The translations under genes and the position numbers were made by a program. From the NCBI GenBank assembly GCA_022833215.1, contig JAIPUZ010000121.1, positions 1 through 33,883 of the forward strand: a stretch of DNA of 33,883 nt, written 5' to 3'. Source of the DNA: Mesorhizobium sp. Its GTDB lineage: Bacteria; Pseudomonadota; Alphaproteobacteria; Rhizobiales; Rhizobiaceae. The notes below the pieces were generated by a model that worked only from the letters and a program-made list of their open reading frames with translations, did not search any database and was not told where the DNA came from. Position 1 is the stretch's first letter. Each line of letters starts with the position of its first letter. Positions 15,958 through 31,104 of this stretch are shown here, piece by piece.

Positions 15958-16047
15958 GGAGAGGTGGCCGAGTGGTTGAAGGCGCACGCCTGGAACGCGT
16001 GTATAGGGGCAACTCTATCGAGGGTTCGAATCCCTCTCTCTCCGCCA
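15958..16047 (+). tRNA. tRNA-Ser (anticodon GGA)
   Basis: A 90-base cloverleaf with encoded CCA. The acceptor stem GGAGAGG pairs with TCTCTCC (one G-T). The anticodon stem CACGC/GCGTG encloses the loop CTGGAAC, anticodon GGA, reading UCC/UCU serine codons. A long variable arm typical of tRNA-Ser precedes the T arm GAGGGTTCGAATCCCTC. The discriminator base is G, as required for serine. Accessory DNA begins directly after its 3' end, so it is a likely integration site. Confidence 0.95.
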
Positions 16048-16396: not shown

Positions 16397-17983
16397 TCAA
16401 CAGTAATCCTTGCTGTCTGCGTAATCAAACGCACCGGGAGGCGTCCACTGGCGAGGCTTTTCGGCTTCGTCGAACTGGCTCGGCAATCCTATGTCAGGCC
16501 CCTCCCCAAAGGGGAACGACAGGCCGTAGGAGATGGCGAAGCGAATAAACTCGCCGCCGCCGCCTTTCGGTACGATGAAGTCCTTGGGGCGAGGAACCTC
16601 CACCAGCTTATACGGCGGAACGCCCGCATTGTTGTGCTGGAAAGCCTTATAGGTGGATTCTATAGATTGCCTGTACCAGGCGGAGTTCGAACCGCCGCCG
16701 CCCATGAAGACTATCAGCGGGCGCATGCGGGAAGTCGTTAGCTTGCCGATGAATTTTCTCTCATAGTCGGCGCTTTGGAAGGCGTCTTCCTGCCAGTTCC
16801 GGCCGTCTTTCTGCCGCGCGGTCATGATGACGTAACCAACTTGCCTTCGAATTCTCTGAACGAACTCGGCCAGTGTCGATGGCGCGCAGCTCTTCAGAAG
16901 CTTCTCCAATGCCACATCGTCGATTTCACCTGTGGTGCCATTCCCCAGGGCAGTTCCAATCGCGGAGACGCCCAAGGGCTCTACCTTGCCTGAATAGAAA
17001 TTGATGCGGCGCTCCCCCCGGAAGTTCAGATAGTTGAACGCGACGCCATCGACGGTACCCCCGCCAACGTCGAAATAGACATAGATGCCCGGTACGGCTT
17101 CGCGGGACATGACGAACGACTGCACCGCCGCGGCAATTTCCGGTACTGCGTGGAAGTCTGTGACCTCAGCCGCAAGACACTGCTGGGCAGCCCCATACGA
17201 AGACTGTGCCTGCTGGAGCGTTTTCGGCACTTGATCGTCTTTGACCCACAGCCAAGCGACGCCAAGCACTTCTTCAAACGTCGTAAGCGCATGTGAATCG
17301 TAGTGCTCGACAGGGACACCTACATTGGCCGACCAGACCGTAAGGCGATTCTTCAGCCTGTCGGCTTCATGGACGGCAAGCCATTGCTGGCTGCGCTGGA
17401 TCACCGATGCAAGGAACCACGCGGCAAGCGCCCTGACGGATTCGGCCTTATTAAGGTCGATCCCCTCGAACTCGGGTAGGCGTTCGCCAATCGGCCCGCC
17501 GGCGAGGCGCATCTTCAGGAAAGGAACGATGACTGCGGATTGCTTGCCGGAAACGCAGTCGCCAAGGAACAGCCGTCCATCGGAACCGATTGCGACAATG
17601 GAGGGGACAAGCGCCTCCTTACCGCCCTTGCCGACCGCAACGGTTCCCGATACCTCACTTCCGAGGTCGCGAAAGCAGACTTTCGTGAAGCTGGTGCCAA
17701 AATCAATGCCGAGATTGATGGCAAGCGGCCTTGCCTTGGGCGCGCTCCGTGGCGGAGTAGCATTTGATGCGGCCGGAGTCTTGCCTTGTGCCTTGAAGGT
17801 TGCCGGGGCATTGCCCGTGCGGGCTCGGCTTGCGGGCGCCTTCTCCGCAACGGCAGGCACTGCCTGCGCAATAGCGGGAGACTCTGCAACGCCGCGCTGT
17901 TCGTCGTCCGGCACCGGGCTTGCATCCGCCCTGCCAAACACGCGCTCTTGAAGTGCTTTAAGCCTGTCACGCCAACTTGCCAT
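16397..17983 (-). CDS. Hsp70-like actin-fold ATPase (no substrate-binding domain)
   Basis: A 528-residue protein of the Hsp70/actin ATPase superfamily. The nucleotide-binding motifs are clear: phosphate-1 LGIDFGTSFTKV (residues 91-102), phosphate-2 FDVGGGTVDG (304-313), and an adenosine-type glycine motif VFMGGGGSN (425-433). The first 85 residues are Ala/Pro/Lys-rich and probably disordered. Only about 95 residues follow the adenosine motif, so the classical peptide-binding and lid domains of DnaK are missing. The ATG at 17981-17983 lies one base after the stop of the SNF2-type helicase gene (TGA-C-ATG), so the two are surely translationally coupled and likely act together. A role as nucleotide-driven switch or sensor for the helicase is inference. 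It is not a housekeeping DnaK. Confidence 0.85.
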   Translation of the reverse strand: MASWRDRLKALQERVFGRADASPVPDDEQRGVAESPAIAQAVPAVAEKAPASRARTGNAPATFKAQGKTPAASNATPPRSAPKARPLAINLGIDFGTSFTKVCFRDLGSEVSGTVAVGKGGKEALVPSIVAIGSDGRLFLGDCVSGKQSAVIVPFLKMRLAGGPIGERLPEFEGIDLNKAESVRALAAWFLASVIQRSQQWLAVHEADRLKNRLTVWSANVGVPVEHYDSHALTTFEEVLGVAWLWVKDDQVPKTLQQAQSSYGAAQQCLAAEVTDFHAVPEIAAAVQSFVMSREAVPGIYVYFDVGGGTVDGVAFNYLNFRGERRINFYSGKVEPLGVSAIGTALGNGTTGEIDDVALEKLLKSCAPSTLAEFVQRIRRQVGYVIMTARQKDGRNWQEDAFQSADYERKFIGKLTTSRMRPLIVFMGGGGSNSAWYRQSIESTYKAFQHNNAGVPPYKLVEVPRPKDFIVPKGGGGEFIRFAISYGLSFPFGEGPDIGLPSQFDEAEKPRQWTPPGAFDYADSKDYC

Positions 17984-17984
17984 G

Positions 17985-20900
17985 TCAGATGACCCTCACA
18001 ACGCCCGCCGCAAGCGGGATCATGGTCGGATCGACCTGCTGCCTGCGTGAAACGCGATCAAGCTTGGTCTTCAACTGCTCCTCCTCTTTCCTGATAAGGC
18101 CTTCCGTCATCGCAACGGGTCGCAGGTTCCCTTCCGCGCGAAACCGGGCGACGCGGGCCTTCAAGCCTTCGATGCGGCGGCTCGCGAGCTTTTCGGCGCT
18201 GGTACGCTGCTGATCGCAGCGCACCTTGTTCTCCGCCTCAAAATCGGAAAGGCGCTCCGAAAACGCATCCCCCAACGCTTCTTCGCATTCCACGGCGGCA
18301 TTGCAGATGACCTCGATGTCCGGGAGTACGTTGACCGCGTTCGGCAGCTTCTCGCCCGCGCGCGAGGCGACGGTAATCAGCGCCTCGGCCTCCGACGCCC
18401 CGAGTGTGCGGCCGCTTCCCAGCGGCTTCACCCTGAATGCAAGCGACTGATCGGATTTCAGGCCGTTGAACGACCAGCGGTGGGCGCTGAATACATAGTC
18501 GCCGGGCGTGACGCCGGCGTCCTGCGCCGGGATTTTTATCGCTGTGACGCGATGGAGCTGACTTTGGTCGTCTTCGTAGCTGAAGCGTATCCATTGTATG
18601 AGGGGATGGCTTGGCTCGATGAACTCCGCCTCGCTGGAAACCTCGTCGGCGCGGCGCGGATCGAAAATGCACAAGATCGGCCTCCCGCTTCGATGAAGCT
18701 GCGTTCTCGTCGATGGCCGCGTCTCAGATATGAAGTAGCCCAGCGCGCGCCGCGCTTCCTCCGAGAGAGCTATGCGCAGGGCGTACTCCGCGCCCGCGCC
18801 CGCCTCAAATTTCGTGCCGGGAAAATTGCGCGCGAAGAAATCCTCGACGAGGGACTGGAGCTCGCTTGCGCTAAGCCACCTGCCCTTTTCACGGCTGTCG
18901 CTGATATGGTCGAGGATGTAGTCGGAAAACCCGACAAGGTTGACCGCCTCTTCCTCCAGGCGCTGCTGTTCCCGCTGCGTGTTGCAGATTGCCAGCTCCG
19001 CCTCGTGGGATTTTCGTTCGCGCTCCTCGTCCGTCAGGGTTGGATCGAGCAGGTTGACGAGCAACTGCTCCGTTACTTCCCCGAGAATGTCTTCGAGATC
19101 GCCGATGCTCTCGCGGAACACGTTGATGCGATCGTACAGCCTCATCAGGATCCGGTCTTCGATGGTGTTCTCGACGACCATATTGATGATCGAGATGCGT
19201 TCCGCTTTCTGCCCCAGCCGGTCGAGGCGGCCGATCCGCTGCTCGACCCTCATGGGATTCCAGGGAAGGTCGTAGTTCACGATAAAGCGGCAGAACTGAA
19301 GGTCGATACCCTCGCTTCCGACTTCGGAAGAGAGCAGGACCGACGGCCCCTCGGGCCGGGCGAAGGCGCGGATCAGATCGTCTTTGTCTTTGCCCATGTC
19401 CCCCATGATCAGCGCCGCATTGATCCCGTCGGCCTTCAGACGTCGCGCGAGGTATTTGAGGGTGCCGCGATAGAAGGCGAAGATGACGAACTTCTCGCGC
19501 GGATTTCGTTTCAGCTCATTCGCAAGAAACTGCTGGAGCGCGCGATACTTTTCATCGCCCTTTTCCAGCGCGCCCAGCTCGTGCTTGACGCCCATGTCGG
19601 GCGGGACGGCATCGACGGCATCGTCGCTATTTTTGTTGCCCTGCGGCTCCGAACGAAGCTGCGGCGAAATCCCGAAGTCCTCCCACAGAAGCTCTTCGAT
19701 GAGGCCCTTGTCGCCCCAGCTTTCGAGCGCGCCGACGATAGAGCTCGCCATCTGCCTCTGCCGGGCGATCAGCGAGAATAGCGACACACCGGTTTTGCCC
19801 GCCGCTTCGTCGCGCAGGCGGCTGGTGACATGGTCGTAGAGCTGCTTTTCGTCCGCGCTGAACCTGACGCTGAGAACCTGGGGCGCCCGCTCGACGCGCC
19901 GCTCCAGAACTTCGCGTTTCCGGCTTCGGGTCATGTATTGCGAAAGGAGCGAGCGCGATTCCAGAAGCCGGAGAATCTCCACCCGCCGCTCGGCATCGCT
20001 GGAGTCAGCGCGAAGATGCTCCTTGATGCGGGCAAGGACGGCGTCATTCTTGAAGTAATCGGACTTCTCGGCCTCGGAAATCGCCTTCAGCGCCGCTGGA
20101 ATATCGGCAGGCTGCTGCCATAGCGCCCTTTGCGCGCGCACGATGCAGGAGTTCGCCGAAAGCATTTCCCCAAAGAGGTATGAATCGTAGAACTGATCGG
20201 GATCGATCAGGCGCAGAAGCTGGTAAAGATTGTCGCTGCCGATCTGGATCGGCGTTGCGGTGAGCAGCACAAAATGATGCGCTGCCTCTCTTAGAAGGCG
20301 GGCAAGCCGGTTGTTCGCGGTCGAGGGGTTCCGGAGATAGTGGGCCTCGTCGATGACGACGTGATCGAAGAGAGCGAACTCCTCGCTGGCCGTGTTCTCG
20401 TCGAGAATGCGGGCGAATTGCGCCCTGACGCCGCCGACATTCTCATCGTCATAGTTGGCGGGGGGGCGTAACCCTTCCAGGCTCGTGATGTAGACAAAAG
20501 ACTCCGCGCTCCTGTAGCTGGCGATGTCCTTCACCCGCTCATAAAGGGCGCTCGCGGAAACGATTTCGCCGGTTATGTTGAAGCGCTTGCGCAGATCCTC
20601 GCGCCACTTCTCGCGCAACATTGCAGGACAGATGATCAATAGCCGCCTGGCTGAATGGCGGGCCTGTATTTCCTTCCAGATATACGTTGCTTCGATGGTT
20701 TTCCCGAGACCGACTTCGTCGGCGATCAGCATCCGGCCGATCGGGGATTCGATAAAACGCATGACCGGCTTAAACTGGTGCGGATAGAAGTCGGTGTTGC
20801 TGGCTTCCATCGAATAGAAGACGTTGGTCAACTCACCTTTGATCTTCTCGAAGGTCAAGACCCGCCTAAGGTCGCTAGGGCCGCCGAATGAACCGGCCTC

Positions 20901-21131
20901 AAGCAGATCAAAGATCTGCACCTCCTCCGCGATCGGCTCCAGTAGCTCGTAACGCTTGTATTGCTTTTCGTTCGGGCCGAAATCCACTTCGACCAATAGG
21001 AAGGTGCCTGCCTTCTTGATCCTGCCGGTGGTCGTTCCCTGCCTGCCCGGGTTGTCGCGGAGCCGAACGCGCGCGCCCCTCGCTTCCGGGTTCCAACTGG
21101 CCAACTCTTCTTCCTGCATTATTCCCGGCAT
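17985..21131 (-). CDS. RapA/SNF2-type superfamily 2 helicase
   Basis: A 1048-residue DNA-dependent ATPase. Residues about 18-65 (VRLRDNP...GTTTGRI...LVEVDFG) look like a small SH3/Tudor-type barrel, as at the N-terminus of RapA. Then come YPHQFKPV (116-123), motif I DEVGLGKT (138-145), motif II DEAH (261-264), motif III TATP (291-294), and in the second RecA-like domain SSEVGSEGIDLQ and NPMRVEQRIGRLDRLGQ (motifs V and VI). The C-terminal 150 residues are rich in charged coiled-coil-like helices. Start choice: ATG at 21129-21131 has AAGGGGAGG directly upstream; a TTG at 21198-21200 would add 23 residues. It is first in an operon with the Hsp70-like gene. Such enzymes push or remodel protein-DNA complexes; helicase unwinding itself is not implied. 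It may be a stand-alone defence or recycling factor. Confidence 0.9.
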   Translation of the reverse strand: MPGIMQEEELASWNPEARGARVRLRDNPGRQGTTTGRIKKAGTFLLVEVDFGPNEKQYKRYELLEPIAEEVQIFDLLEAGSFGGPSDLRRVLTFEKIKGELTNVFYSMEASNTDFYPHQFKPVMRFIESPIGRMLIADEVGLGKTIEATYIWKEIQARHSARRLLIICPAMLREKWREDLRKRFNITGEIVSASALYERVKDIASYRSAESFVYITSLEGLRPPANYDDENVGGVRAQFARILDENTASEEFALFDHVVIDEAHYLRNPSTANNRLARLLREAAHHFVLLTATPIQIGSDNLYQLLRLIDPDQFYDSYLFGEMLSANSCIVRAQRALWQQPADIPAALKAISEAEKSDYFKNDAVLARIKEHLRADSSDAERRVEILRLLESRSLLSQYMTRSRKREVLERRVERAPQVLSVRFSADEKQLYDHVTSRLRDEAAGKTGVSLFSLIARQRQMASSIVGALESWGDKGLIEELLWEDFGISPQLRSEPQGNKNSDDAVDAVPPDMGVKHELGALEKGDEKYRALQQFLANELKRNPREKFVIFAFYRGTLKYLARRLKADGINAALIMGDMGKDKDDLIRAFARPEGPSVLLSSEVGSEGIDLQFCRFIVNYDLPWNPMRVEQRIGRLDRLGQKAERISIINMVVENTIEDRILMRLYDRINVFRESIGDLEDILGEVTEQLLVNLLDPTLTDEERERKSHEAELAICNTQREQQRLEEEAVNLVGFSDYILDHISDSREKGRWLSASELQSLVEDFFARNFPGTKFEAGAGAEYALRIALSEEARRALGYFISETRPSTRTQLHRSGRPILCIFDPRRADEVSSEAEFIEPSHPLIQWIRFSYEDDQSQLHRVTAIKIPAQDAGVTPGDYVFSAHRWSFNGLKSDQSLAFRVKPLGSGRTLGASEAEALITVASRAGEKLPNAVNVLPDIEVICNAAVECEEALGDAFSERLSDFEAENKVRCDQQRTSAEKLASRRIEGLKARVARFRAEGNLRPVAMTEGLIRKEEEQLKTKLDRVSRRQQVDPTMIPLAAGVVRVI

Positions 21132-21254
21132 TGCCTCCCCTTGCGCAACATCAAAGTGGTGATCCACATCGGTAGTCGCTTTGTCGGAATCTCCTTCCAA
21201 CCCGAATCACAGAATAATCTATGTCCACCCTCTTTGGCGCTTAGATTAGCTCTA

Positions 21255-21536
21255 CTACGATAATCTATCCCGTTTCTCCTCTTCGTCGACGATACTTTTA
21301 ACGACCTCATAGTTCATCGGCGCATCGCTGATCCGCGCGACTTCTGCCGCCACTTTCGCCCAATGTAGAAAGGCATGGCCATCGCCGGCAAAGCGGGCAC
21401 GAGCCGCGGCCCGTTGCGCATCATAGTAAGCAGAAGCAGGATCTCGCTCGATCAACAGCCGGGCATCATGCTGAAAAAGCCGCCTCAGTTGCCGCCGCCT
21501 TTCAACCCACGCCGTAATGGCGGACAATAGGCCCAT
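21255..21536 (-). CDS. Small conserved-type protein upstream of the helicase operon
   Basis: A 93-residue predicted cytoplasmic protein, function unknown. It has a basic N-terminal helix (WVERRRQLRRLFQHDARLLIE), then an alanine/arginine helix with AYYDAQRAAARARFAGDG and a conserved-looking HFWAKVAAEVARIS-type stretch (HAFLHWAKVAAEVARISD), and an acidic tail. I recall similar uncharacterised proteins in rhizobia but cannot name a family. Its ATG (21534-21536) overlaps the ATG of the divergent nuclease gene (21535-21537). It ends 123 bases before the helicase start on the same strand, so it could be the first gene of that transcript. Confidence 0.6.
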   Translation of the reverse strand: MGLLSAITAWVERRRQLRRLFQHDARLLIERDPASAYYDAQRAAARARFAGDGHAFLHWAKVAAEVARISDAPMNYEVVKSIVDEEEKRDRLS

Positions 21537-22275
21537 GATTCGTCGCCTCGCCCTGTTTCCCCTCGTCGCCACTATACTGCTTGCAGACCAGACTGTTGCT
21601 GCAACGGCCACGACAATAACAGGCGCCGCGAGAATTTCCGACGGGGATACGATATCGATAGAGGACATGAGGATCCGGTTGAACGGCATCGATGCGCCGG
21701 AGACCGATCAGGTCTGCATCGACACCGCCGAAAAGACCTACGCCTGCGGGATCGCCGCGCGCGACGCGTTGGTCCGATTGGTTCATGACCGCATGGTTAC
21801 CTGCACGGGTAGTGAGACCGACCGCTATGACCGGCGCATCATGACCTGCTTTGTTGGCGAGATGGAGATCAACGCGGCAATGGTAGCCGGAGGCTGGGCG
21901 CTCGCGTTCAGGCGCTACTCGGATATCTATGTTGGCGAGGAACAGATCGCGCGCACAAAGCAGGCAGGTCTGTGGTCCGGCGCATTCATTGCTCCGTGGG
22001 ATTGGCGCCATCGTGGTCCGCAGACCGAGATTCTGGGCGCCTTGTCGGTGCCGATCATTGCGCAGCAGCATCTCCTGCCGCAACCGGTGGCGTCAGCAAT
22101 TCCGACAACTGGCTGCCAGATCAAGGGCAACATCAGCCGCAACGGCAACCGCATCTATCATGTGCCGGGCCAAAAGGACTACGACAAGACCAAGATCACC
22201 GAGGGCAAGGGCGAACGCTGGTTTTGCACGGAGGACGAAGCGCAGGCTGCCGGTTGGCGGCGGGCTCGGAACTAA
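21535..22275 (+). CDS. Secreted thermonuclease-like (SNase) protein
   Basis: Staphylococcal-nuclease-family Ca-dependent nuclease with a signal peptide (MIRRLALFPLVATILLADQTVA). The 246-residue product has the OB-fold core: GDTISIEDMRIRLNGIDAPE, with the Arg and acidic residues of the active site, DRYDRRIMTC carrying the second arginine, then MVAGGWALAFRRYS and QAGLWSGAFIAPWDWR. The C-terminal about 55 residues (GCQIKGNIS...RIYHVPGQ...ERWFCTEDEAQAAGWRRA) form a separate conserved module often attached to rhizobial SNases. Probably periplasmic or exported. An ATG at 21517 would add 6 residues. Its stop overlaps the stop of the convergent HTH gene by four bases. Confidence 0.85.
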   Translation: MIRRLALFPLVATILLADQTVAATATTITGAARISDGDTISIEDMRIRLNGIDAPETDQVCIDTAEKTYACGIAARDALVRLVHDRMVTCTGSETDRYDRRIMTCFVGEMEINAAMVAGGWALAFRRYSDIYVGEEQIARTKQAGLWSGAFIAPWDWRHRGPQTEILGALSVPIIAQQHLLPQPVASAIPTTGCQIKGNISRNGNRIYHVPGQKDYDKTKITEGKGERWFCTEDEAQAAGWRRARN

Positions 22276-22676
22276 CCCGTTCGAGAACCAACAGCACCGA
22301 ATACAGCTTCCACCTGCTCCGCCCACGGCAGGTCTGCGACCGCGACCAGATCGCTGAGTGATAACGCTGGCGGAATGCGGTGGATGACGAGCTTCTCCAG
22401 CACGTCCGGCGCGAGCCAGGCCAGTCGCATCATGCGGCTGACAAAACGGTCGGTCACCTTCTCGGTCATGGCGATGTCGGCAATGGTCGAGGCCTCGCCG
22501 CGCTCGATCCTGCGCCGCCAGTTCCATGCGCGGGCGATGGCGCGCAGCACATGCGCATCCTGCGCTCGCTTCTCGGCGGGTCCGTGGTCGGCCGGCGGTA
22601 GGATCTTCGGGCGGCCGTTCTTTTTGCGGAAGGTGAGCGGGATGACCACGCGGATGGTATTGGCGCTGTTCATCAT
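22272..22676 (-). CDS. ParB-like helix-turn-helix protein of the recombinase operon
   Basis: A 134-residue protein. The central part STIADIAMTEKVTDRFVSRMMRLAWLAPDVLEKLV looks like the HTH of ParB/KorB-type proteins, followed by an LSLSDLVAVADLPWAEQ segment. This kind of small protein regularly accompanies DUF2924 and serine recombinase genes in alphaproteobacterial mobile DNA; its role is not established. Its ATG overlaps the recombinase stop (ATGA), making it the last gene of the operon. It may act as an accessory DNA-binding factor for recombination or as regulator; both are inference. Confidence 0.75.
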   Translation of the reverse strand: MMNSANTIRVVIPLTFRKKNGRPKILPPADHGPAEKRAQDAHVLRAIARAWNWRRRIERGEASTIADIAMTEKVTDRFVSRMMRLAWLAPDVLEKLVIHRIPPALSLSDLVAVADLPWAEQVEAVFGAVGSRTG

Positions 22677-23992
22677 GCGGCGTCCTTTTCCGTCTGCGGC
22701 GCCATCATCTGGCGTGCCAGCGAACCGATGCCGTCATGGCGCAGGTCGACGGCGATGCCGGCCGCTCCTACCGTGACGCGGGCCACCAGAAGCTGGACGA
22801 TGCGCGCCTGCTCAGCCGGAAACAGCGACGCCCACAGCGCGTCGAACTCGCGGAGTGCAGCGATGATGGCCTTGTCATCAATGTCCGGCCTGTCGGCTTG
22901 CAGGGCGGCGAGCGCCCGGGCCCGGATCTCGGGCGTCGCGATCATGCGGCGGATTTCGCCGATGACGGCATCCTCCACCATGCCAGCGGCAAGGCGCTGC
23001 GGTCCTGCGGCATCGGTCGGCCGGCTCCGGATCAGGTCCATCGAGGTGTAGTAGCGGTAGAGCTTGGCTCCCTTCTTCGTTGCCGTCGGCGTCATCGCCG
23101 CGCCGGTGTCGGTGAAGATCAGCCCTTTCAGCAGCGCCGGCGTTGCGCTACGCGTATTGCTGGCGCGCTGGCGCGGGCTCGTCTGCAGGATGGCATGAAC
23201 CTTGTCCCACAGCGCACGGTCGATGATGGCCTCGTGCTCGCCGGGATAGGAGGTGCCCTTGTGCACCGCCTCGCCGATATAGACCCGGTTGTTGATCAGC
23301 TTGTAGAGAAAGCCCTTGTCGATCGGCTTGCCGCGCCGGGTGCGGACGTTCTCGGCGGCCAGCGACTTCGCCAGCACGGTGGCCGAGCCGACGCTGACGA
23401 AGCGTTCGAAGATCATCCGGACTGTGGCGGCTTCCGTTTCCTCGATCAGCAGCTTGCGATTTTCAACTCGATAGCCGAGCGGCACGAAGCCGCCCATCCA
23501 CATGCCGCGCTTGCGCGAGGCGGCGATCTTGTCGCGGATGCGCTCGCCGATCACCTCCCGCTCGAACTGCGCGAAGCTGAGGAGGATATTCAGGGTCAAG
23601 CGTCCCATCGAGGTGGTGGTGTTGAACGACTGCGTCACCGACACGAAGGTCACCTGATTGCGGTCGAAGATCTCGACCAGCTTGGCGAAATCCATCAGCG
23701 AGCGCGACAGGCGGTCGATCTTGTAGACGACGATGACGTCGATCAGTCCCGCCTCGACATCGGCCAGCAGCCGCTGCAATGCAGGCCGCTCCAGCGTGCC
23801 GCCGGAATGGCCACCGTCGTCATAGCGTTCACGGATGGCGGCAAACCCTTCCGAGCGCTGGCTGGCTACATAGGCCTCGCAGGATTCACGCTGGGCGTCG
23901 AGCGAGTTGAATTCCATGTCGAGCCCTTCCTCACTCGACTTGCGGGTGTAAATCGCGCAACGCAAACGGCGCTGAGCTTGTGCAGTGTTCAT
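22673..23992 (-). CDS. Serine recombinase (resolvase/invertase N-terminus, recombinase domain)
   Basis: A site-specific recombinase of 439 residues. The N-terminal catalytic domain has YTRKSSEEG with nucleophile S19, LDAQRESCEAYV, YDDGGHSGGTLERPALQRLL and VVYKIDRLSRS. It is followed by the recombinase domain (PLGYRVENRKLLIEETEAATVRMIFERF, then FLYKLINNRVYIGEAVHKG) and a region in the place of the zinc ribbon (LLKGLIFTDTGAAMTPT...LYRYYTS). This region lacks all the usual cysteines. The total length is short for a large serine integrase. Start and stop overlap the neighbours by ATGA on both sides. It could integrate/excise the element or invert DNA; attachment sites are not identified. Confidence 0.92.
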   Translation of the reverse strand: MNTAQAQRRLRCAIYTRKSSEEGLDMEFNSLDAQRESCEAYVASQRSEGFAAIRERYDDGGHSGGTLERPALQRLLADVEAGLIDVIVVYKIDRLSRSLMDFAKLVEIFDRNQVTFVSVTQSFNTTTSMGRLTLNILLSFAQFEREVIGERIRDKIAASRKRGMWMGGFVPLGYRVENRKLLIEETEAATVRMIFERFVSVGSATVLAKSLAAENVRTRRGKPIDKGFLYKLINNRVYIGEAVHKGTSYPGEHEAIIDRALWDKVHAILQTSPRQRASNTRSATPALLKGLIFTDTGAAMTPTATKKGAKLYRYYTSMDLIRSRPTDAAGPQRLAAGMVEDAVIGEIRRMIATPEIRARALAALQADRPDIDDKAIIAALREFDALWASLFPAEQARIVQLLVARVTVGAAGIAVDLRHDGIGSLARQMMAPQTEKDAA

Positions 23993-24501
23993 CGTTCGAT
24001 CCTCCGCGCGTCACCCAGTCCGAAGAAGCGGTATCCGTTCCAGTTGCTGCCGGAGATCGCTCTCGCGGCGGCCGACAGCGACTTGAAGCGACGGCCCTGC
24101 CATTCGAACCCGTCGCGCATTACGGTCACCGTGTGCTCGACACCATCCCACTCCCGAACCAGCCGCGTGCCGATGACCGGATTGCGCGGATCCGCAATGA
24201 TCGCCTTGCGACCGGAATTGCCGTCGATCTCGTCGGCCAGCAGGTCCAGTATCTTGCGAGTCTCACGGGAAAGCCCGCCAAGGGCCAGTTCCTGGATGCG
24301 CCAGGCCAGCCGCATTTCGAGATAGCCGCGGCTGTTGTTCGGCGCTGGCGCCGCGAACAAGGCCTCCCACTCGGCTTTCAGCTCCCTAACCGACATGCGC
24401 TTCAGCGCCGCCAGCCTGGCCAGCACCGGCGTGTCCGCCGCCATTTTTTCATGCTGCTGGTTCTGTTTCGATCCAGCCCGTTTCGTCGTTTCCGACATCA
24501 T
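23989..24501 (-). CDS. DUF2924-type protein, recombinase partner
   Basis: A 170-residue protein resembling the DUF2924 family found beside serine recombinases. Features: VLARLAALKRMSVRELKAEWEALFAAPAP near the N-terminus, YLEMRLAWRIQELALGGLSRET, then a C-terminal beta-rich segment GTRLVREWDGVEHTVTVMRDGFEWQGRRFKSLSAAARAISGSNWNGYRFFGL, which looks like a small DNA-binding DUF/RAMA-type fold. GGAGGGCA precedes the ATG. It overlaps the recombinase start by ATGA and is itself entered by ATGA from the 74-residue gene. A role as accessory or directionality factor is inference. Confidence 0.85.
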   Translation of the reverse strand: MMSETTKRAGSKQNQQHEKMAADTPVLARLAALKRMSVRELKAEWEALFAAPAPNNSRGYLEMRLAWRIQELALGGLSRETRKILDLLADEIDGNSGRKAIIADPRNPVIGTRLVREWDGVEHTVTVMRDGFEWQGRRFKSLSAAARAISGSNWNGYRFFGLGDARRIER

Positions 24502-25563: not shown

Positions 25564-26232
25564 TCAGATCTCCCGTCCGAACCAGCGGATCCGGCCGATG
25601 ATCCTGATCTCTTCGGCGGTGCGCTCATAGGGGCTGTAGAACGTGTTGTCCGAGATGATGCGCACCTGCGGCGGCTCCGAGTTCGGGATGTGTTCGAGAC
25701 GCTTGGCCACCAGTCCCATGCCGTCGAACAGCACGAAGATCCCGGGCGGTGTCGGCATGCAGCGGGCAAGGTCGACGAGCACGACGTCGCCGTCGTGCAG
25801 GGTCGGCATCATGCTGTCGCCTTCGACATGCATGATGCGCAGGTTTGCCGGGTTGGCGCGCAGCCGATGCGTGATCCACGAACTCCTGAAATGGTAGGGT
25901 TCACCGTTTTCCACCTCGTCCGCGACGATCTTGCCGCCGCCCATCGACGCGGTCACCTCGACGGAGGGGATCGCCACGAAGGAGTCCGCCTCTTCTTCCA
26001 GGGCTGGTTCCTCGCCCTCGATCATGCCCTTGCCGTGCAGGAGCCAGTTTCGGTCGACCTTGATGATCGCCGCGACCTTGTCGAGCTTTTCAAGGTTCGG
26101 GCGCTCCGAGCGGCCGCGCATGATGTCGTAGACGAAGGACCTGTTGACACGCGCCTGCTCGGCCACCTCACGCGCATTCAGCCCCAGCTGTTCGGCTCGG
26201 GCTCTCAGTCTTTCGGCGATGGTGATGCTCAT
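25564..26232 (-). CDS. LexA/CI-type S24 repressor with XRE HTH
   Basis: A 222-residue prophage-type repressor. Residues about 5-60 are an XRE helix-turn-helix (AERLRARAEQLGLNAREVAEQARVNRSFVYDIMRG). The C-terminal half is an S24 (LexA-like) self-cleaving peptidase domain with the catalytic serine S140 in VEGDSMMPTLHDGDVVLVD and the lysine K177 in GLVAKRLE. The linker has ASMGGG at 95-100, so the usual Ala-Gly scissile pair is Met-Gly here. Start: ATG at 26230-26232 suits the promoter at 26261-26289, giving a leader of about 22 bases; an ATG at 26247 adds five residues but would leave almost no leader. It is divergent from the 26338 gene, as in a CI/Cro-type switch, and coupled to the 240-residue gene. 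Confidence 0.9.
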   Translation of the reverse strand: MSITIAERLRARAEQLGLNAREVAEQARVNRSFVYDIMRGRSERPNLEKLDKVAAIIKVDRNWLLHGKGMIEGEEPALEEEADSFVAIPSVEVTASMGGGKIVADEVENGEPYHFRSSWITHRLRANPANLRIMHVEGDSMMPTLHDGDVVLVDLARCMPTPPGIFVLFDGMGLVAKRLEHIPNSEPPQVRIISDNTFYSPYERTAEEIRIIGRIRWFGREI

Positions 26233-26246
26233 GGTTTCGTCCGACA

Positions 26247-26273
26247 TGTGGATTTTGTGGATTAGAGAGGATT
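26247..26273. repeat. Tandem GGATT repeats at the repressor promoter
   Basis: TGTGGATT at 26247-26254, TGTGGATT at 26256-26263 and AGAGGATT at 26266-26273 are three copies 9-10 bases apart, about one helical turn each. They cover the -10 box of the repressor promoter and the predicted transcript start. Plausible operator sites, for example for autoregulation. Confidence 0.5.
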
Positions 26274-26289
26274 GATTCATCCGCGTCAA
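26261..26289 (-). promoter_or_regulatory. Promoter of the repressor gene
   Basis: On the minus strand TTGACG (26284-26289) is followed after exactly 17 bases by TCTAAT (26261-26266), an excellent housekeeping promoter. The predicted start near 26254 lies about 22 bases before the repressor ATG. Confidence 0.75.
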
Positions 26290-26300
26290 GCAAATAGAAC
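26272..26300 (+). promoter_or_regulatory. Face-to-face promoter for the divergent gene
   Basis: TTGATT (26272-26277), 17 bases, TAGAAC (26295-26300). It overlaps the repressor promoter on the opposite strand almost completely, so the two RNA polymerases could exclude each other. Box quality is moderate. Confidence 0.45.
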
Positions 26301-26337
26301 ATAACAAGAACGAAAATCTGCGGGGCGGGTGCGTGGG

Positions 26338-27027
26338 ATGGCGTCGATCGAGAAGGATTATTTCGCACTGGACGAGCTGGAGGAGCGATGGGAGGTGCCG
26401 CAGCGCGATCTGGCCTATCTCGCCGAAAACGGCCTGCTGAAGGTCTCCGTGCGCCTCTACGGGGCCCAGCTCGAACATGGCAGCTACGAGGAGATCGACG
26501 AAGGGCAGTGGTGCTCCATTCCCGATGAACAAGCCCCCTTTCACGGGCTTCAGGACCTGCGCACCCATGACGCCTACCGGCTGTTTCACGAGGGCGCGCT
26601 GCGGATCGATCGTTTCGAGGCTCCGAAGGATCGTTACTGCGTCGTGCTACGACCCGAGGATGGAATCCTGATCCGGAAGGAGGAGCTGGTCGTCCGGCGC
26701 GAGGAGCGCGACCGCGCCGAAGCCAAGCACGGGCTGGCCGGTACGCGGCGGACATCCGAAATCGTCTTCGAGCAACGGCACGATTTCAGCGAGATCATTC
26801 TCGGCGACCGGACCTTCATGCTCGGCCAGATCCAGGCGCGCGTCGTGCGCATTCTCCATGACGCGGCCATGCGCGGCGTTCCCTGGCAGCATGGCAAGGC
26901 GGTGCTGGCCGAAGCCGGCTCTTCCTGCACGCGCCTGTCGGACCTGTTCAAGACACAACCGGAATGGCGCAGATTGATCCAGTCCGACCGGCGCGGCCGT
27001 TACCGGCTCAATATCCGGTTCTTCTGA
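26338..27027 (+). CDS. Unknown DNA-binding-type protein divergent from the repressor
   Basis: A 229-residue protein of unknown family. The N-terminal YFALDELEERWEVPQRDLAYLAENGLLKVSVRLYG looks like a MerR/excisionase-type helix-turn-helix with wing. The C-terminal third (FMLGQIQARVVRILHDAAMRGVPWQHGKAVLAEAGSSC and LSDLFKTQPEWRRLI) reads like a winged helix. The position opposite a CI-type repressor is that of Cro or an early regulator. ATG at 26338-26340; an in-frame GTG at 26329 is an alternative. A strong terminator follows, so it forms its own transcript. Confidence 0.75.
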   Translation: MASIEKDYFALDELEERWEVPQRDLAYLAENGLLKVSVRLYGAQLEHGSYEEIDEGQWCSIPDEQAPFHGLQDLRTHDAYRLFHEGALRIDRFEAPKDRYCVVLRPEDGILIRKEELVVRREERDRAEAKHGLAGTRRTSEIVFEQRHDFSEIILGDRTFMLGQIQARVVRILHDAAMRGVPWQHGKAVLAEAGSSCTRLSDLFKTQPEWRRLIQSDRRGRYRLNIRFF

Positions 27028-27937: not shown

Positions 27938-28809
27938 CGGCCGCGCTCCCCATCATCTCAGCCGATCAGCGTCTGGCGGCTCCGCGCAGCATCAAGGGCT
28001 GCATCTTCGGCAAATCCGGCATCGGCAAGACCTCGCTGCTGTGGACGCTCGACCCGGCCACCACGCTGTTCATGGACCTTGAAGCGGGCGATCTCGCCAT
28101 CGAGGGCTGGGCCGGCGACACGATCCGTCCCCGGACCTGGGATGAATGCCGCGATTTTGCGGTGTTCATCGGTGGCCCCAACCCGGCGCTGCGCGACGAC
28201 CAACCCTATAGCCAGGCGCATTTCGACGCTGTCGTCGCACGTCTCGGCGATCCGGCTCAGCTCGACCGCTACGGCACGGTCTTCATCGACTCGATCACGG
28301 TGGCTGGCCGGCTCTGCTTCCAGTGGACCAAGGGCCAGCCGGAGGCATTCTCCGACAAGACCGGCAAGCCCGATATTCGTGGCGCCTATGGCCTGCATGG
28401 CCGCGAGATGATCGCCTGGCTGACCCACCTGCAGCACACGCGCTCGAAGAATATCTGGTTTGTCGGCATCCTCGACGAGAAGCTCGACGACTTCAATCGC
28501 AAGATCTTCGTGCCGCAAATCGACGGCGCCAAGACCGGCCTCGAGCTGCCCGGCATCGTCGATGAAGTCATCAGCATGGTCGAGCTGAAGGACGATGACG
28601 GCGCACCGTACCGCGCCTTCGTCTGCCAGACGCTCAACCCCTTCGGCTTTCCCGCCAAGGATCGCTCCGGCCGGCTCGACATGATCGAACAGCCGGATCT
28701 CGGCCGGCTGATGGGCAAGATCCGCAATGCCGCGCGCCAGGCTTTCGCAGCGCCGGCGACAGCCGCCTCCACCCAATCCTCCTCCGCAGCTCAAGAACAA
28801 GGAGCCTGA
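27934..28809 (+). CDS. RecA-like / Sak4-like P-loop ATPase
   Basis: A 291-residue single-domain ATPase. Walker A is GKSGIGKTS (26-34), Walker B is TVFIDS (115-120), and LFMDLEAGD follows strand two as in phage nucleotide-binding (AAA_24) proteins. The type is found in phage recombination modules (Sak4-like annealing/RecA-like proteins). The next gene encodes a DUF669-like protein and a Cas4-like exonuclease follows further on, which supports that reading. ATGA overlap with the preceding gene; the tail is Ala/Thr/Ser-rich. Function as recombinase is inference; a DNA-packaging or loader role is less likely. Confidence 0.85.
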   Translation: MTAALPIISADQRLAAPRSIKGCIFGKSGIGKTSLLWTLDPATTLFMDLEAGDLAIEGWAGDTIRPRTWDECRDFAVFIGGPNPALRDDQPYSQAHFDAVVARLGDPAQLDRYGTVFIDSITVAGRLCFQWTKGQPEAFSDKTGKPDIRGAYGLHGREMIAWLTHLQHTRSKNIWFVGILDEKLDDFNRKIFVPQIDGAKTGLELPGIVDEVISMVELKDDDGAPYRAFVCQTLNPFGFPAKDRSGRLDMIEQPDLGRLMGKIRNAARQAFAAPATAASTQSSSAAQEQGA

Positions 28810-28812
28810 CCC

Positions 28813-29409
28813 ATGTCGGTATGGAACGATTTCAACGACGCCCAGACCAACACCAACCTGATCCCCAAGGGCACGCTCGCCAAGGTGCGGCTCACCATCC
28901 GGCCCGGCGGTTTCGACGATCCGTCGCAGGGATGGACTGGCGGCTACGCCACGCGCGGCTCGACCGGCGCGGTCTATCTCAATGGCGAGTTCACCGTGCT
29001 CGAAGGTCAGTACGCCCGTCGCAAGATCTTCACACTGATCGGGCTCTACAGCCCCAAGGGTCCGGAATGGGCCAACATGGGGCGTGGCCTGATCCGCGGC
29101 ATGCTGAACTCGGCCCGCGGCCTTTCCGACAAGGATCAGAGCGAGGCAGCACAGGCCGCGCGTCGCATCTCGGGCTTTGTCGATCTCGACGGGCTGGAGT
29201 TCGTCGCCCGCATTGACGTCGGCACCGACACCAATGGCGACGACAAGAACGAGGTCCGCTCCGCCGTCACCGCCAGCCACAAGGACTACGCCGCCATCAT
29301 GGGGATGGTCACGGCGACGCCGCAGGCCAACGCTGCGCAGGGCAATGCCTATGCCGCGGCCAGGCAGCATGGCGCAACACCGTCGTCGCGCCCCTCCTGG
29401 GCACAATAG
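28813..29409 (+). CDS. DUF669-like phage protein (possible ssDNA-binding partner)
   Basis: A 198-residue protein opening with SVWNDFNDAQTNTNLIPKGTLAKVRLTIRPGG. It has YLNGEFTVLEGQYARRKIFTLIGLYSPKGPEW and a beta-rich core that looks like an OB-fold, then GFVDLDGLEFVARIDVGTDTNGDDKNEV and a low-complexity Ala/Gln/Ser tail. DUF669-type proteins take the single-strand-binding place in phage recombination modules. It follows the ATPase gene by 3 bases. Confidence 0.75.
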   Translation: MSVWNDFNDAQTNTNLIPKGTLAKVRLTIRPGGFDDPSQGWTGGYATRGSTGAVYLNGEFTVLEGQYARRKIFTLIGLYSPKGPEWANMGRGLIRGMLNSARGLSDKDQSEAAQAARRISGFVDLDGLEFVARIDVGTDTNGDDKNEVRSAVTASHKDYAAIMGMVTATPQANAAQGNAYAAARQHGATPSSRPSWAQ

Positions 29410-29424
29410 CGCGAGGGGCCGACC

Positions 29425-31104
29425 ATGCTGCTTCGTCCTCGCCAGAAACTCTTTGTCGAGCGCTGTGTCGCCGCGCTCGACACCCACGCCAACACGCTGG
29501 GCGTGGCTCCGACCGGGGCCGGCAAGACCATCATGTTGTCCGCCGTCGCCGGTAAGATGATCGGCGATAGCGGTGCCAGGGCGGCGGTGCTTGCCCATCG
29601 CGACGAGCTGACCGCTCAGAACCGCGAGAAGTTCGCCCGGGTCAATCCTGCGATCACCACCTCGGTCGTCGACGCCAGCGGCAAGTCCTGGGGTGGCCGG
29701 GTCACTTTCGCCATGGTCCCGACGCTGTCGCGCAGCACCAACCTCAACGCCATGCCGGCGCTCGATCTGCTGGTCATCGATGAGGCGCATCATGTGACGG
29801 CCGACAGCTATCGCCGCATCATCGACCAGGCGCTGAAGCGCAATCCCTCCTGCCGCGTCTTCGGCGTTACCGCCACGCCCAATCGCGGGGACCGCAAGGG
29901 GCTGCGCGAGGTCTTCTCCAATGTGTCAGACCAGATCCGCATCGGCGAGCTGATCCGCTCCGGCCATCTGGTGCCACCGCGTACCTTCGTCATCGATGTC
30001 GGCGTCAGGGATGAGCTTGCCAGGGTCAGGAAGACTGCCAGCGATTTCGACATGAGCGAAGTCGAGCGCATCATGAACCGCACGCCGGTCACCGATGCCG
30101 TCATCCGGAACTGGCGGGAGAAGGCCGCCGATCGGCAGACCGTGGTGTTCTGCTCGACCGTCGACCACGCACGCGGCGTGACCGACGCGTTCAACGCCGC
30201 CGGCATTGCCGCGGCTCTCGTTCATGGCGAGATGGGCGACGCTGAGCGCAAGACGGCGCTTTCCGCCTATGCCGCCGGTGACATTCAGGTCGTCGTCAAT
30301 GTCGCCGTGCTGACCGAAGGCTGGGACCACCCGCCAACCTCCTGCGTCGTGCTGCTGCGCCCGTCCTCCTACAAGTCGACCATGATCCAGATGGTCGGGC
30401 GGGGCTTGCGCACCGTCGATCCGAACGAGCACCCCGGTATCGTCAAGACCGACTGCGTGGTGCTGGACTTCGGCACCTCCAGCCTGATGCACGGCTCGCT
30501 CGAGCAGGAGGTCGACCTTGCCGGACACGAGGCGTCCGGCGATGCACCGACCAGGACCTGCCCGCAATGCGAGGCTGATATTCCGCTCGGTTGCCATGAA
30601 TGCCCGCTTTGCGGCTTCATCTTCGAGAGCATCGACGGCGGCGGCGACATTCCGCTCGGCGATTTCGTGATGTCGGAAATCGACCTGTTGAAACGCTCCA
30701 GCTTCCGCTGGTGCGACCTGTTCGGTGACGATGCCGCACTGATGGCCAACGGGTTCTCCGCATGGGCCGGCGTCTTCTTCCTCAACGGCCGCTGGTATGG
30801 CGTAGGCGCCGCAAAAGGGGTCGCGCCGCGTCTGCTGGCCATCGGCGAGCGCATGGTCGGCCTCGCCGCTGCTGACGATTGGCTGAACGAGCACGAGTCC
30901 GACGAAAGCGCCCACAAGACCCGACGCTGGTTGTCGCAACCGCCGACGGACCGGCAGCTTGCATACCTCCCGGCCGACTACCGACACGATTTCGGGCTGA
31001 CCCGCTATCAGGCCTCGGCACTGCTCTCCTTCCAGTTCAACCGTGCCGCCATACGCAGCCTGGTCTTCGGCGCGGACGAGCATGATCTGGCGAGGGCGGC
31101 ATGA
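29425..31104 (+). CDS. DEAD-type superfamily 2 helicase with zinc ribbon
   Basis: A 559-residue helicase of the XPB/SSL2-like restriction-helicase type seen in phages. Motif I is APTGAGKT (28-35), motif II DEAH (119-122), motif III TATP (149-152), VVFCST and LTEGWDHP in the second domain, and motif VI QMVGRGLR (322-329). Just after the core, CPQC (379-382) and CPLC (393-396) form a four-cysteine zinc ribbon. The remaining 160 residues are unassigned. It probably unwinds DNA during element replication or recombination. A GAGGGG ribosome site precedes the ATG; the stop overlaps the next gene by ATGA. Confidence 0.9.
   Translation: MLLRPRQKLFVERCVAALDTHANTLGVAPTGAGKTIMLSAVAGKMIGDSGARAAVLAHRDELTAQNREKFARVNPAITTSVVDASGKSWGGRVTFAMVPTLSRSTNLNAMPALDLLVIDEAHHVTADSYRRIIDQALKRNPSCRVFGVTATPNRGDRKGLREVFSNVSDQIRIGELIRSGHLVPPRTFVIDVGVRDELARVRKTASDFDMSEVERIMNRTPVTDAVIRNWREKAADRQTVVFCSTVDHARGVTDAFNAAGIAAALVHGEMGDAERKTALSAYAAGDIQVVVNVAVLTEGWDHPPTSCVVLLRPSSYKSTMIQMVGRGLRTVDPNEHPGIVKTDCVVLDFGTSSLMHGSLEQEVDLAGHEASGDAPTRTCPQCEADIPLGCHECPLCGFIFESIDGGGDIPLGDFVMSEIDLLKRSSFRWCDLFGDDAALMANGFSAWAGVFFLNGRWYGVGAAKGVAPRLLAIGERMVGLAAADDWLNEHESDESAHKTRRWLSQPPTDRQLAYLPADYRHDFGLTRYQASALLSFQFNRAAIRSLVFGADEHDLARAA

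Follow-up and report, generated by a model that had tools for sequence, protein, structure and literature searches.

A gene for a helicase of the SNF2 superfamily and a gene for an Hsp70-like ATPase lie next to each other in a stretch of 33,883 nucleotides from the α-proteobacterium Mesorhizobium sp. (GenBank assembly GCA_022833215.1, contig JAIPUZ010000121.1), which we call the window. Judging from sequence, this pair is most aptly described as a two-gene module of restriction-type defense that has no name yet, and we estimate a probability of roughly 60% that it constitutes a horizontally moving accessory module of bacterial defense against foreign DNA, in which the ATPase would act as a switch. 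The two genes are inherited together, with very few cases of separation, and as a unit they recur in or beside different restriction-type operons.

Co-inheritance of the Helicase and Its Hsp70-like Partner

On the minus strand of the window, the stop codon of the helicase (17987-17985) is separated by a single base from the ATG of the Hsp70-like gene (17983-17981), exactly as the original prediction had it (TGA-C-ATG, a junction of translational coupling). The helicase is counted as 1048 residues from the ATG at 21131, while its open frame extends to a TTG at 21200 and another possible start is the ATG at 21119. Over 26 pairs, the spacing between the genes ranges from -8 to 165, with 20 of them within -8 to 14, values which depend on the start codons chosen for the open reading frames (ORFs).

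The survey of co-occurrence across genomes that had been proposed as a check came out in favor of a linked unit. When 84,980 species genomes were scanned for the Hsp70-like protein, 19 loci emerged, 18 of which have a helicase homologue next door, even if truncated to a 234-residue ORF that keeps only the N-terminal part (L018) or cut by the end of the contig (L010 and L019); the exception, L008, retains only a C-terminal Hsp70 remnant of 282 residues. Adjacency holds also for the plasmid records with the Hsp70-like gene (4/4) and for three new, divergent relatives in Pseudomonadota found by profile (22-29% identity), each with a full-length helicase. At least five of 398 genomes of this phylum have the Hsp70-like gene, two of which were already known (that of the window and G295). 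Among cyanobacteria, 55 of 386 genomes match the Hsp70-like profile, and the match reaches the ATPase domain in at least nine, three of them already known; the six further genomes have a full helicase (L088-L090), a motor-less homologue (L091, L092) or, in L093, an 83-residue Hsp70 remnant with no helicase found. All genome counts are lower bounds and absences are soft, because no more than two candidates were scored for each genome in the whole-genome searches. L002/G295, L013/G934, L014/G749, and L023/G805 were treated as the same record; L002, L003, L043, and the pairs of L004, L021, and the window are close relatives, and order and phylum labels of the G-numbered sets were inferred from named relatives.

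The reverse search, conducted with the helicase profile at E<=1e-80, matches eight of the same 398 Pseudomonadota genomes. The five helicases scoring at least 855 bits belong to exactly the five genomes having the Hsp70-like gene; the remaining three helicases (409-443 bits) are adjacent to a sacsin/HSP90-type ATPase, full length in L083 and L084 and a partial match of 325 residues in L085. Ten plasmid records found by the helicase divide similarly into six with an Hsp70-like partner and four with a sacsin-type partner, the partner on a Sphingobium plasmid being confirmed by hhalign (probability 99.5). A weaker helicase match, G197/L044 (E=2e-56), has no Hsp70-like gene within its 20 kb. When 25 sequence sets were compared, 24 contained the Hsp70-like cluster and 23 that of the helicase, the next commonest gene cluster being present in 6; the helicase of L007, dropped from the ORF set, was detected by tblastn. 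The Hsp70-like protein has no match among phage records, and none of the 49 stretches of viral contigs matching its family pattern encodes a relative. Matches to the helicase occur in 157 phage records, a large share of them being ordinary RapA/SNF2 proteins; of the two records opened, L096 has a sacsin-type partner and L097 ends inside the helicase, so that its partner is not assessable.

In evolutionary terms, the distances among helicases and among Hsp70-like proteins are strongly correlated (r=0.968 over n=24 loci, with 0 of 5000 permutations as high). The gene order is helicase then Hsp70-like in Pseudomonadota and in cyanobacterial L023, L088, L089, and L090, and is reversed in one cyanobacterial clade of eight rows (support 100/99) with adjacency kept. 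The expectation that the two proteins belong together is thereby borne out at the level of one unit, adjacent across Alphaproteobacteria, other Pseudomonadota, and cyanobacteria and surviving a swap of gene order. A tree of 35 helicases separates the 26 with Hsp70-like partners by one branch (89/90; recovered in 92% of 200 bootstrap trees) and the seven with sacsin-type partners by another (98/96). Purifying selection acts on the helicase and the ATPase domain: three close comparisons give dN/dS values of 0.07-0.09 for the former and 0.11-0.15 for the latter, versus 0.48-0.55 for the N-terminal linker of the Hsp70-like protein. A fourth comparison (L005), near or at saturation, yields 0.12 for the helicase with dS of 1.96 and 0.39 for the linker, the ATPase domain being not computable.

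The Pair within Restriction-Type Operons

The association with genome defense that had been predicted is supported by many copies of the pair. In one cyanobacterium (L088/L094), drmD is followed by the pair and then by drmMI, drmA, drmB, and drmC, all genes of this complete DISARM operon sharing one strand. In L089/L095, the pair is preceded in the same orientation by sspC, sspF, sspG, sspH, and sspA, the gap from sspA to the helicase being 547 bases. In L005 it comes after hmaB and hmaC and before a homologue of the PDC-S68 protein of L002; L006 and L007 present homologues of the Hma-locus genes of L005 in the same order (L005 and L002 were scanned with PADLOC; L006 and L007 were assigned by homology). 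Next to the pair of L024 are a TM0106 nuclease resembling MkoA of Mokosh, an AAA ATPase, and McrC, with Hachiman HamA and AbiE-type genes farther out. The neighbors in L040, L041, and L042 are helicase-nuclease, TM0106, or McrBC-like proteins, one neighbor in L004 weakly matches LmuB, and a type I-D CRISPR locus is located some 7 kb away from the pair of L022. As a side observation, L017:14394-16496, near its pair, encodes a UvrD-type helicase with an N-terminal Gp49/RelE-like domain that resembles the ArmD described for ARMADA.

Could the pair simply be the remnant of a class 1 DISARM system, its helicase being DrmD and the rest lost or located elsewhere? The PADLOC DrmD model PDLC02623 fits the helicase nearly end to end (span 8-1019, 976 bits, E=4.3e-294), so half of the pair is already recognized. 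In this respect the original prediction, which had considered the composition unrecognized, needs to be qualified, even if no named two-gene system was matched. Yet the DISARM operon of L088 has a separate DrmD beside the pair (1141.7 bits to PDLC02621, end to end), and the NCBIfam DISARM_DrmD model (NF038317) gives 443.6 bits to the helicase, under its cut-off of 610. Moreover, the chosen neighbors of other loci include no best match to DrmA, DrmB, DrmC, or the DISARM methylase, the Pfam domains of which were not found in the window either (24 of its 112 ORFs of at least 90 residues were scanned). The remnant explanation is consequently very doubtful. PDLC02623 also fits helicases other than the DrmD of their own operon; given the distinct DrmD beside the family member in L088, this label may mis-call DISARM components, a warning for annotation.

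The Helicase

By its motifs and SNF2 domain, the helicase is a member of the SNF2 superfamily in the RapA-like branch. Pfam recognizes SNF2-rel_dom and Helicase_C, and the motifs GLGKT (141-145), DEAH (261-264), TATP (291-294), and QRIGR.DR (631-638) are invariant across 15 aligned helicases, in line with the earlier claim of intact nucleotide motifs in both proteins. The N-terminal part has predicted β strands inside residues 21-66 in a low-confidence structure model, and is labeled Tudor/SH3-like only by analogy with the N-terminal Tudor region described for RapA and BrxHII in part of PMC12839542. In the C-terminal domain, pLDDT is 58-86 except for 41 near residues 853-862.

The nearest solved relatives by sequence are RapA chains, which align over most of the helicase length. 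This would suit a different role, that of a RapA paralogue freeing stalled RNA polymerase with an Hsp70-like helper, carried as fitness cargo rather than for immunity. Such a role in transcription recycling appears quite unlikely, since the presence of the pair is very patchy, with none in the eight same-genus genomes listed in the order search, and the pair sits on plasmids and in DISARM, Hma, and Ssp operons; furthermore, the NCBIfam RapA equivalog gives 192.8 bits, far under its cut-off of 576.

The Hsp70-like ATPase

According to its structure model, the partner has the fold of the Hsp70 nucleotide-binding domain, of the actin superfamily, with the catalytic residues. K157, E282, D305, G307, and T310 are kept in all 30 aligned proteins and D94 and T97 in 29, the exception being L091, where this motif is encoded just upstream of the start codon chosen for the ORF (the alignment leaves out the broken or partial L008, L020, L092, and L093 and the duplicates L025/L043 and L031). 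The chain ends at residue 528 and the fold stops near 505, with pLDDT below 50 for 505-528; hence there is no substrate-binding domain. The N-terminal linker is 38% alanine plus proline and has pLDDT below 50 over residues 1-80. Sequence searches place the protein in no family of PADLOC or NCBIfam, the Pfam match obtained is no better than chance, and there is no match in the PDB, while the best and the listed PDB matches to the family profile A1 fall on a coiled-coil N-terminal extension. Many cyanobacterial partners have such a hydrophobic and coiled-coil module (A1 positions 11-190, e.g., L013:8996-10000), which is the only part matched in 46 of the 386 cyanobacterial genomes; these matches were left out of all pair counts.

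An actin superfamily fold on plasmids and an island might also suggest a maintenance device, combining an actin-like filament protein with a helicase. We regard this as extremely improbable: the best 50 structural matches are all of Hsp70/Hsp110 type wherever the protein is named in the title, even if other actin-fold families could lie outside that list; two of the plasmids examined have their own ParA or ParA/ParB; and chromosomal copies of the pair lie inside DISARM and Hma operons.

Motor-less and Sacsin-Type Partners

Adjoining the Hsp70-like gene of L091 is a 501-residue protein (L091:7499-9004) that matches positions 3-94 and 753-951 of the helicase profile, the motor being unmatched, and adjoining that of L092 a 544-residue protein (L092:7142-8776) that matches the C-terminal part. 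If functional, these loci point to the C-terminal domain of the helicase as the contact site of the ATPase. L018, where only the N-terminal part of the helicase is kept, does not fit this idea, and is probably decayed too.

In each of the eight loci opened for a related group of RapA-like helicases, the neighboring gene encodes a sacsin/HSP90-type ATPase (a partial match in L085); these loci come from Alphaproteobacteria and further Pseudomonadota, from an archaeal plasmid, and from a fecal phage record that is unverified. The partner in L032, the sole locus of this kind scanned with PADLOC, matches models of TmtA (best 9.1e-55), which we take to be the stand-alone system Tiamat. Before the helicase-sacsin pair in the phage record, L096:4910-7420 encodes a protein that, to judge by eye, resembles a BREX PglZ. 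Since an ATPase of this kind occupies the same position beside related helicases, a partner of chaperone type may be a general rule for the branch.

How should this recurrent association with chaperone-type proteins be interpreted? The Hsp70-like protein could serve solely to assemble or fold the large helicase, which alone would be the active defense protein. Tight translational coupling and a chaperone-type fold agree with such a role, as does the sacsin/HSP90-type substitute, which fits a shared need for chaperoning. However, the protein has no substrate-binding domain, and L091 pairs it with a motor-dead partner, though that copy may be decaying; on balance, we deem a mere folding factor unlikely.

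Proposed Mechanism and Its Weight

Proteins of the SNF2 family are motors that move along double-stranded DNA, and the conformation of Hsp70 domains depends on ATP and ADP. In the accessory defense module that we favor, the SNF2 protein would load onto double-stranded DNA and translocate, while the Hsp70-like ATPase would work in trans as a clamp or switch, timed by ATP and ADP, on the non-motor parts of the helicase, above all the C-terminal domain. Only once foreign DNA is engaged would the switch license either the remodeling of invading nucleoprotein or hand-over to a nuclease supplied by the host operon (DISARM, Ssp, Hma, McrBC, RecB- or PLD-type). At stand-alone loci such as the window, the damage would have to come from the motor itself or from a nuclease of the host. 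A timing or licensing step is plausible in DISARM-type operons, and for the pair by analogy only, given that the DNA-stimulated ATPase activity of DrmAB is reported to be repressed by methylation (PMC9142583, in part).

Several points weigh against this reading. No recognized defense gene lies beside the pair among the window ORFs scanned with Pfam, nor among the two neighbors scanned in L090; the Hsp70-first cyanobacterial copies show none close by, their neighbors being mostly unscanned. Neighbors were hand-chosen with no matched control, so that a recurrent defense context is claimed, rather than a measured enrichment. The pair is rare, occurring in at least two of 397 genomes of the order, five of 398 of the phylum, and nine of 386 of cyanobacteria (matches reaching the ATPase domain). 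Support for the Hsp70-paired helicases is moderate (89/90), the rooting of the tree is weakened by two outgroup rows on very long branches, and the correlation of distances partly reflects shared descent. The structure model of the helicase is of low confidence (pLDDT 63.6, pTM 0.33). The motor-less evidence comes from two cyanobacterial loci that may be decaying copies, because the Hsp70-like gene of L092 is split by a frameshift and that of L091 has no usual start codon upstream of the first motif.

Surroundings in the Window

The tRNA-Ser side of the pair has chromosomal genes, including those of ArgS, an HD-domain protein, and ValS, while a recombinase island extends on the other side, with an AAA_25 protein at the right edge of the window (table 1). 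The tRNA, the SNase domain, and the recombinase mentioned in the original prediction are real, but their position adds little to the case. There is no second copy of the tRNA-Ser 3′ end within the window, repeats around the island form no convincing att site, and the Rfam scan matched the tRNA alone. The SNase protein, read by eye, starts with a hydrophobic, signal-like segment; therefore its export is probable and a working partnership is not. This secreted-looking protein was considered as an effector and rejected. A large Shinella plasmid (L021) has the same pair plus several homologues of island genes. A 611-residue ORF at 27958-29793 is related to a 1042-residue protein of this element, and consequently is possibly truncated in the window.

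Table 1. Coordinates of the features discussed, in the window unless a locus is named.
Feature	Position	Strand	Evidence
Helicase gene, SNF2/RapA-type, 1048 residues (P0002)	17985..21131	-	ORF and PADLOC/Pfam/NCBIfam matches
Helicase N-terminal part, residues 1-100, Tudor/SH3-like by analogy with RapA and BrxHII	20832..21131	-	low-confidence model
Helicase two-lobe motor, residues 103-720	18972..20825	-	
Helicase C-terminal domain, residues 753-951	18279..18875	-	hmmsearch of L091 and L092 proteins with profile A2
Junction TGA-C-ATG (translational coupling)	17981..17987	-	sequence
Hsp70-like ATPase gene, 528 residues (P0001)	16397..17983	-	ORF, translation; fold modeled as Hsp70 nucleotide-binding domain
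Ala/Pro-rich N-terminal linker, residues 1-86	17726..17983	-	low pLDDT, dN/dS, composition
Hsp70-type nucleotide-binding domain, residues 87-505	16469..17725	-	D94, K157, E282, D305, T310
tRNA-Ser(GGA), presumed island edge	15958..16047	+	ARAGORN; Rfam
SNase-domain protein ("nuclease")	21517..22275	+	Pfam SNase
Serine recombinase of the island, context outside the pair	22673..23992	-	Pfam Resolvase and Recombinase
DUF2924 protein beside the recombinase, context	23989..24501	-	Pfam DUF2924
S24-type repressor of the island	25564-26589		
Helicase-group sacsin/HSP90-type loci	L032:9137-15477, L034:9131-15451, L033:9350-15834, L035:7140-13476; also L083, L084, L085, L096		

Comparison with Known Systems

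No pair of SNF2 and Hsp70 proteins was found in the parts of the open-access literature covered; subscription papers, preprints, and newer defense catalogs lie outside that scope, and thus a prior description is possible. These parts describe Hsp70-like components for CoCoNuT and GAP1-N2, and helicases resembling RapA for BREX, Hma, DISARM, and ARMADA (PMC11090510, PMC12839542, PMC10853773, PMC7159879, PMC3710099, PMC9142583, PMC12458937).

The likeness to class 1 DISARM lies in the RapA/SNF2-type helicase, nearly all of which is covered by a PADLOC DrmD model, and in the cyanobacterial operon that contains the pair. Nevertheless, that operon has its own DrmD, the partner genes drmA, drmB, drmC, and drmM were not found with the helicase by the Pfam scan of the window, and the covered part of the DISARM account mentions no Hsp70-like component (PMC9142583). 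The BREX-related systems centered on Hma and DUF499 are similar in having, in L005 (with homologues in L006 and L007), an SNF2 helicase next to the adenine methylase HmaB and the AAA+ ATPase HmaC. They differ in that the same scan found no HmaB-type methylase or DUF499 ATPase in the window, just as it found no other methylase, DUF1998 or PLD protein, or McrBC; the main text of PMC12839542, in the part covered, does not mention Hsp70 or a chaperone.

From the side of the ATPase, CoCoNuT systems with CnuD or Hsp70-McrB fusions resemble the pair in having an Hsp70-like ATPase in a predicted defense system. CnuD, however, belongs to McrBC-type GTPase systems and forms a unit of nucleotide-binding and substrate-binding domains with degenerate Walker A-like motifs (PMC11090510, in part), whereas the present protein consists of a nucleotide-binding domain alone, its catalytic residues are conserved, and it is paired with an SNF2 protein. 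A subset of GAP1-N2 conflict systems similarly has an HSP70 without peptide-binding domain, but these are centered on a GTPase, with HSP70 and GrpE, and no SNF2 partner is described in the part of PMC7159879 covered. TmtA is matched by the sacsin-type partner of L032, while the Hsp70-like protein is of another fold.

The filing of the window pair as DISARM, Hma, or CoCoNuT fails. More tentatively, and with somewhat less than even confidence, we suggest that the pair may found an unrecognized class of defense modules, in which a RapA-type translocase would be gated by an ATPase of Hsp70 type (or of HSP90/sacsin type in the related group), operating alone or plugged, as a ready-made unit, into modification-dependent systems that are otherwise unrelated (e.g., DISARM, Ssp phosphorothioation, or Hma), to which it would add a chaperone-timed decision step. 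If so, one small unit would be common to several unrelated restriction-type systems, and chaperone-type ATPases would constitute decision switches for DNA motors in bacterial immunity.

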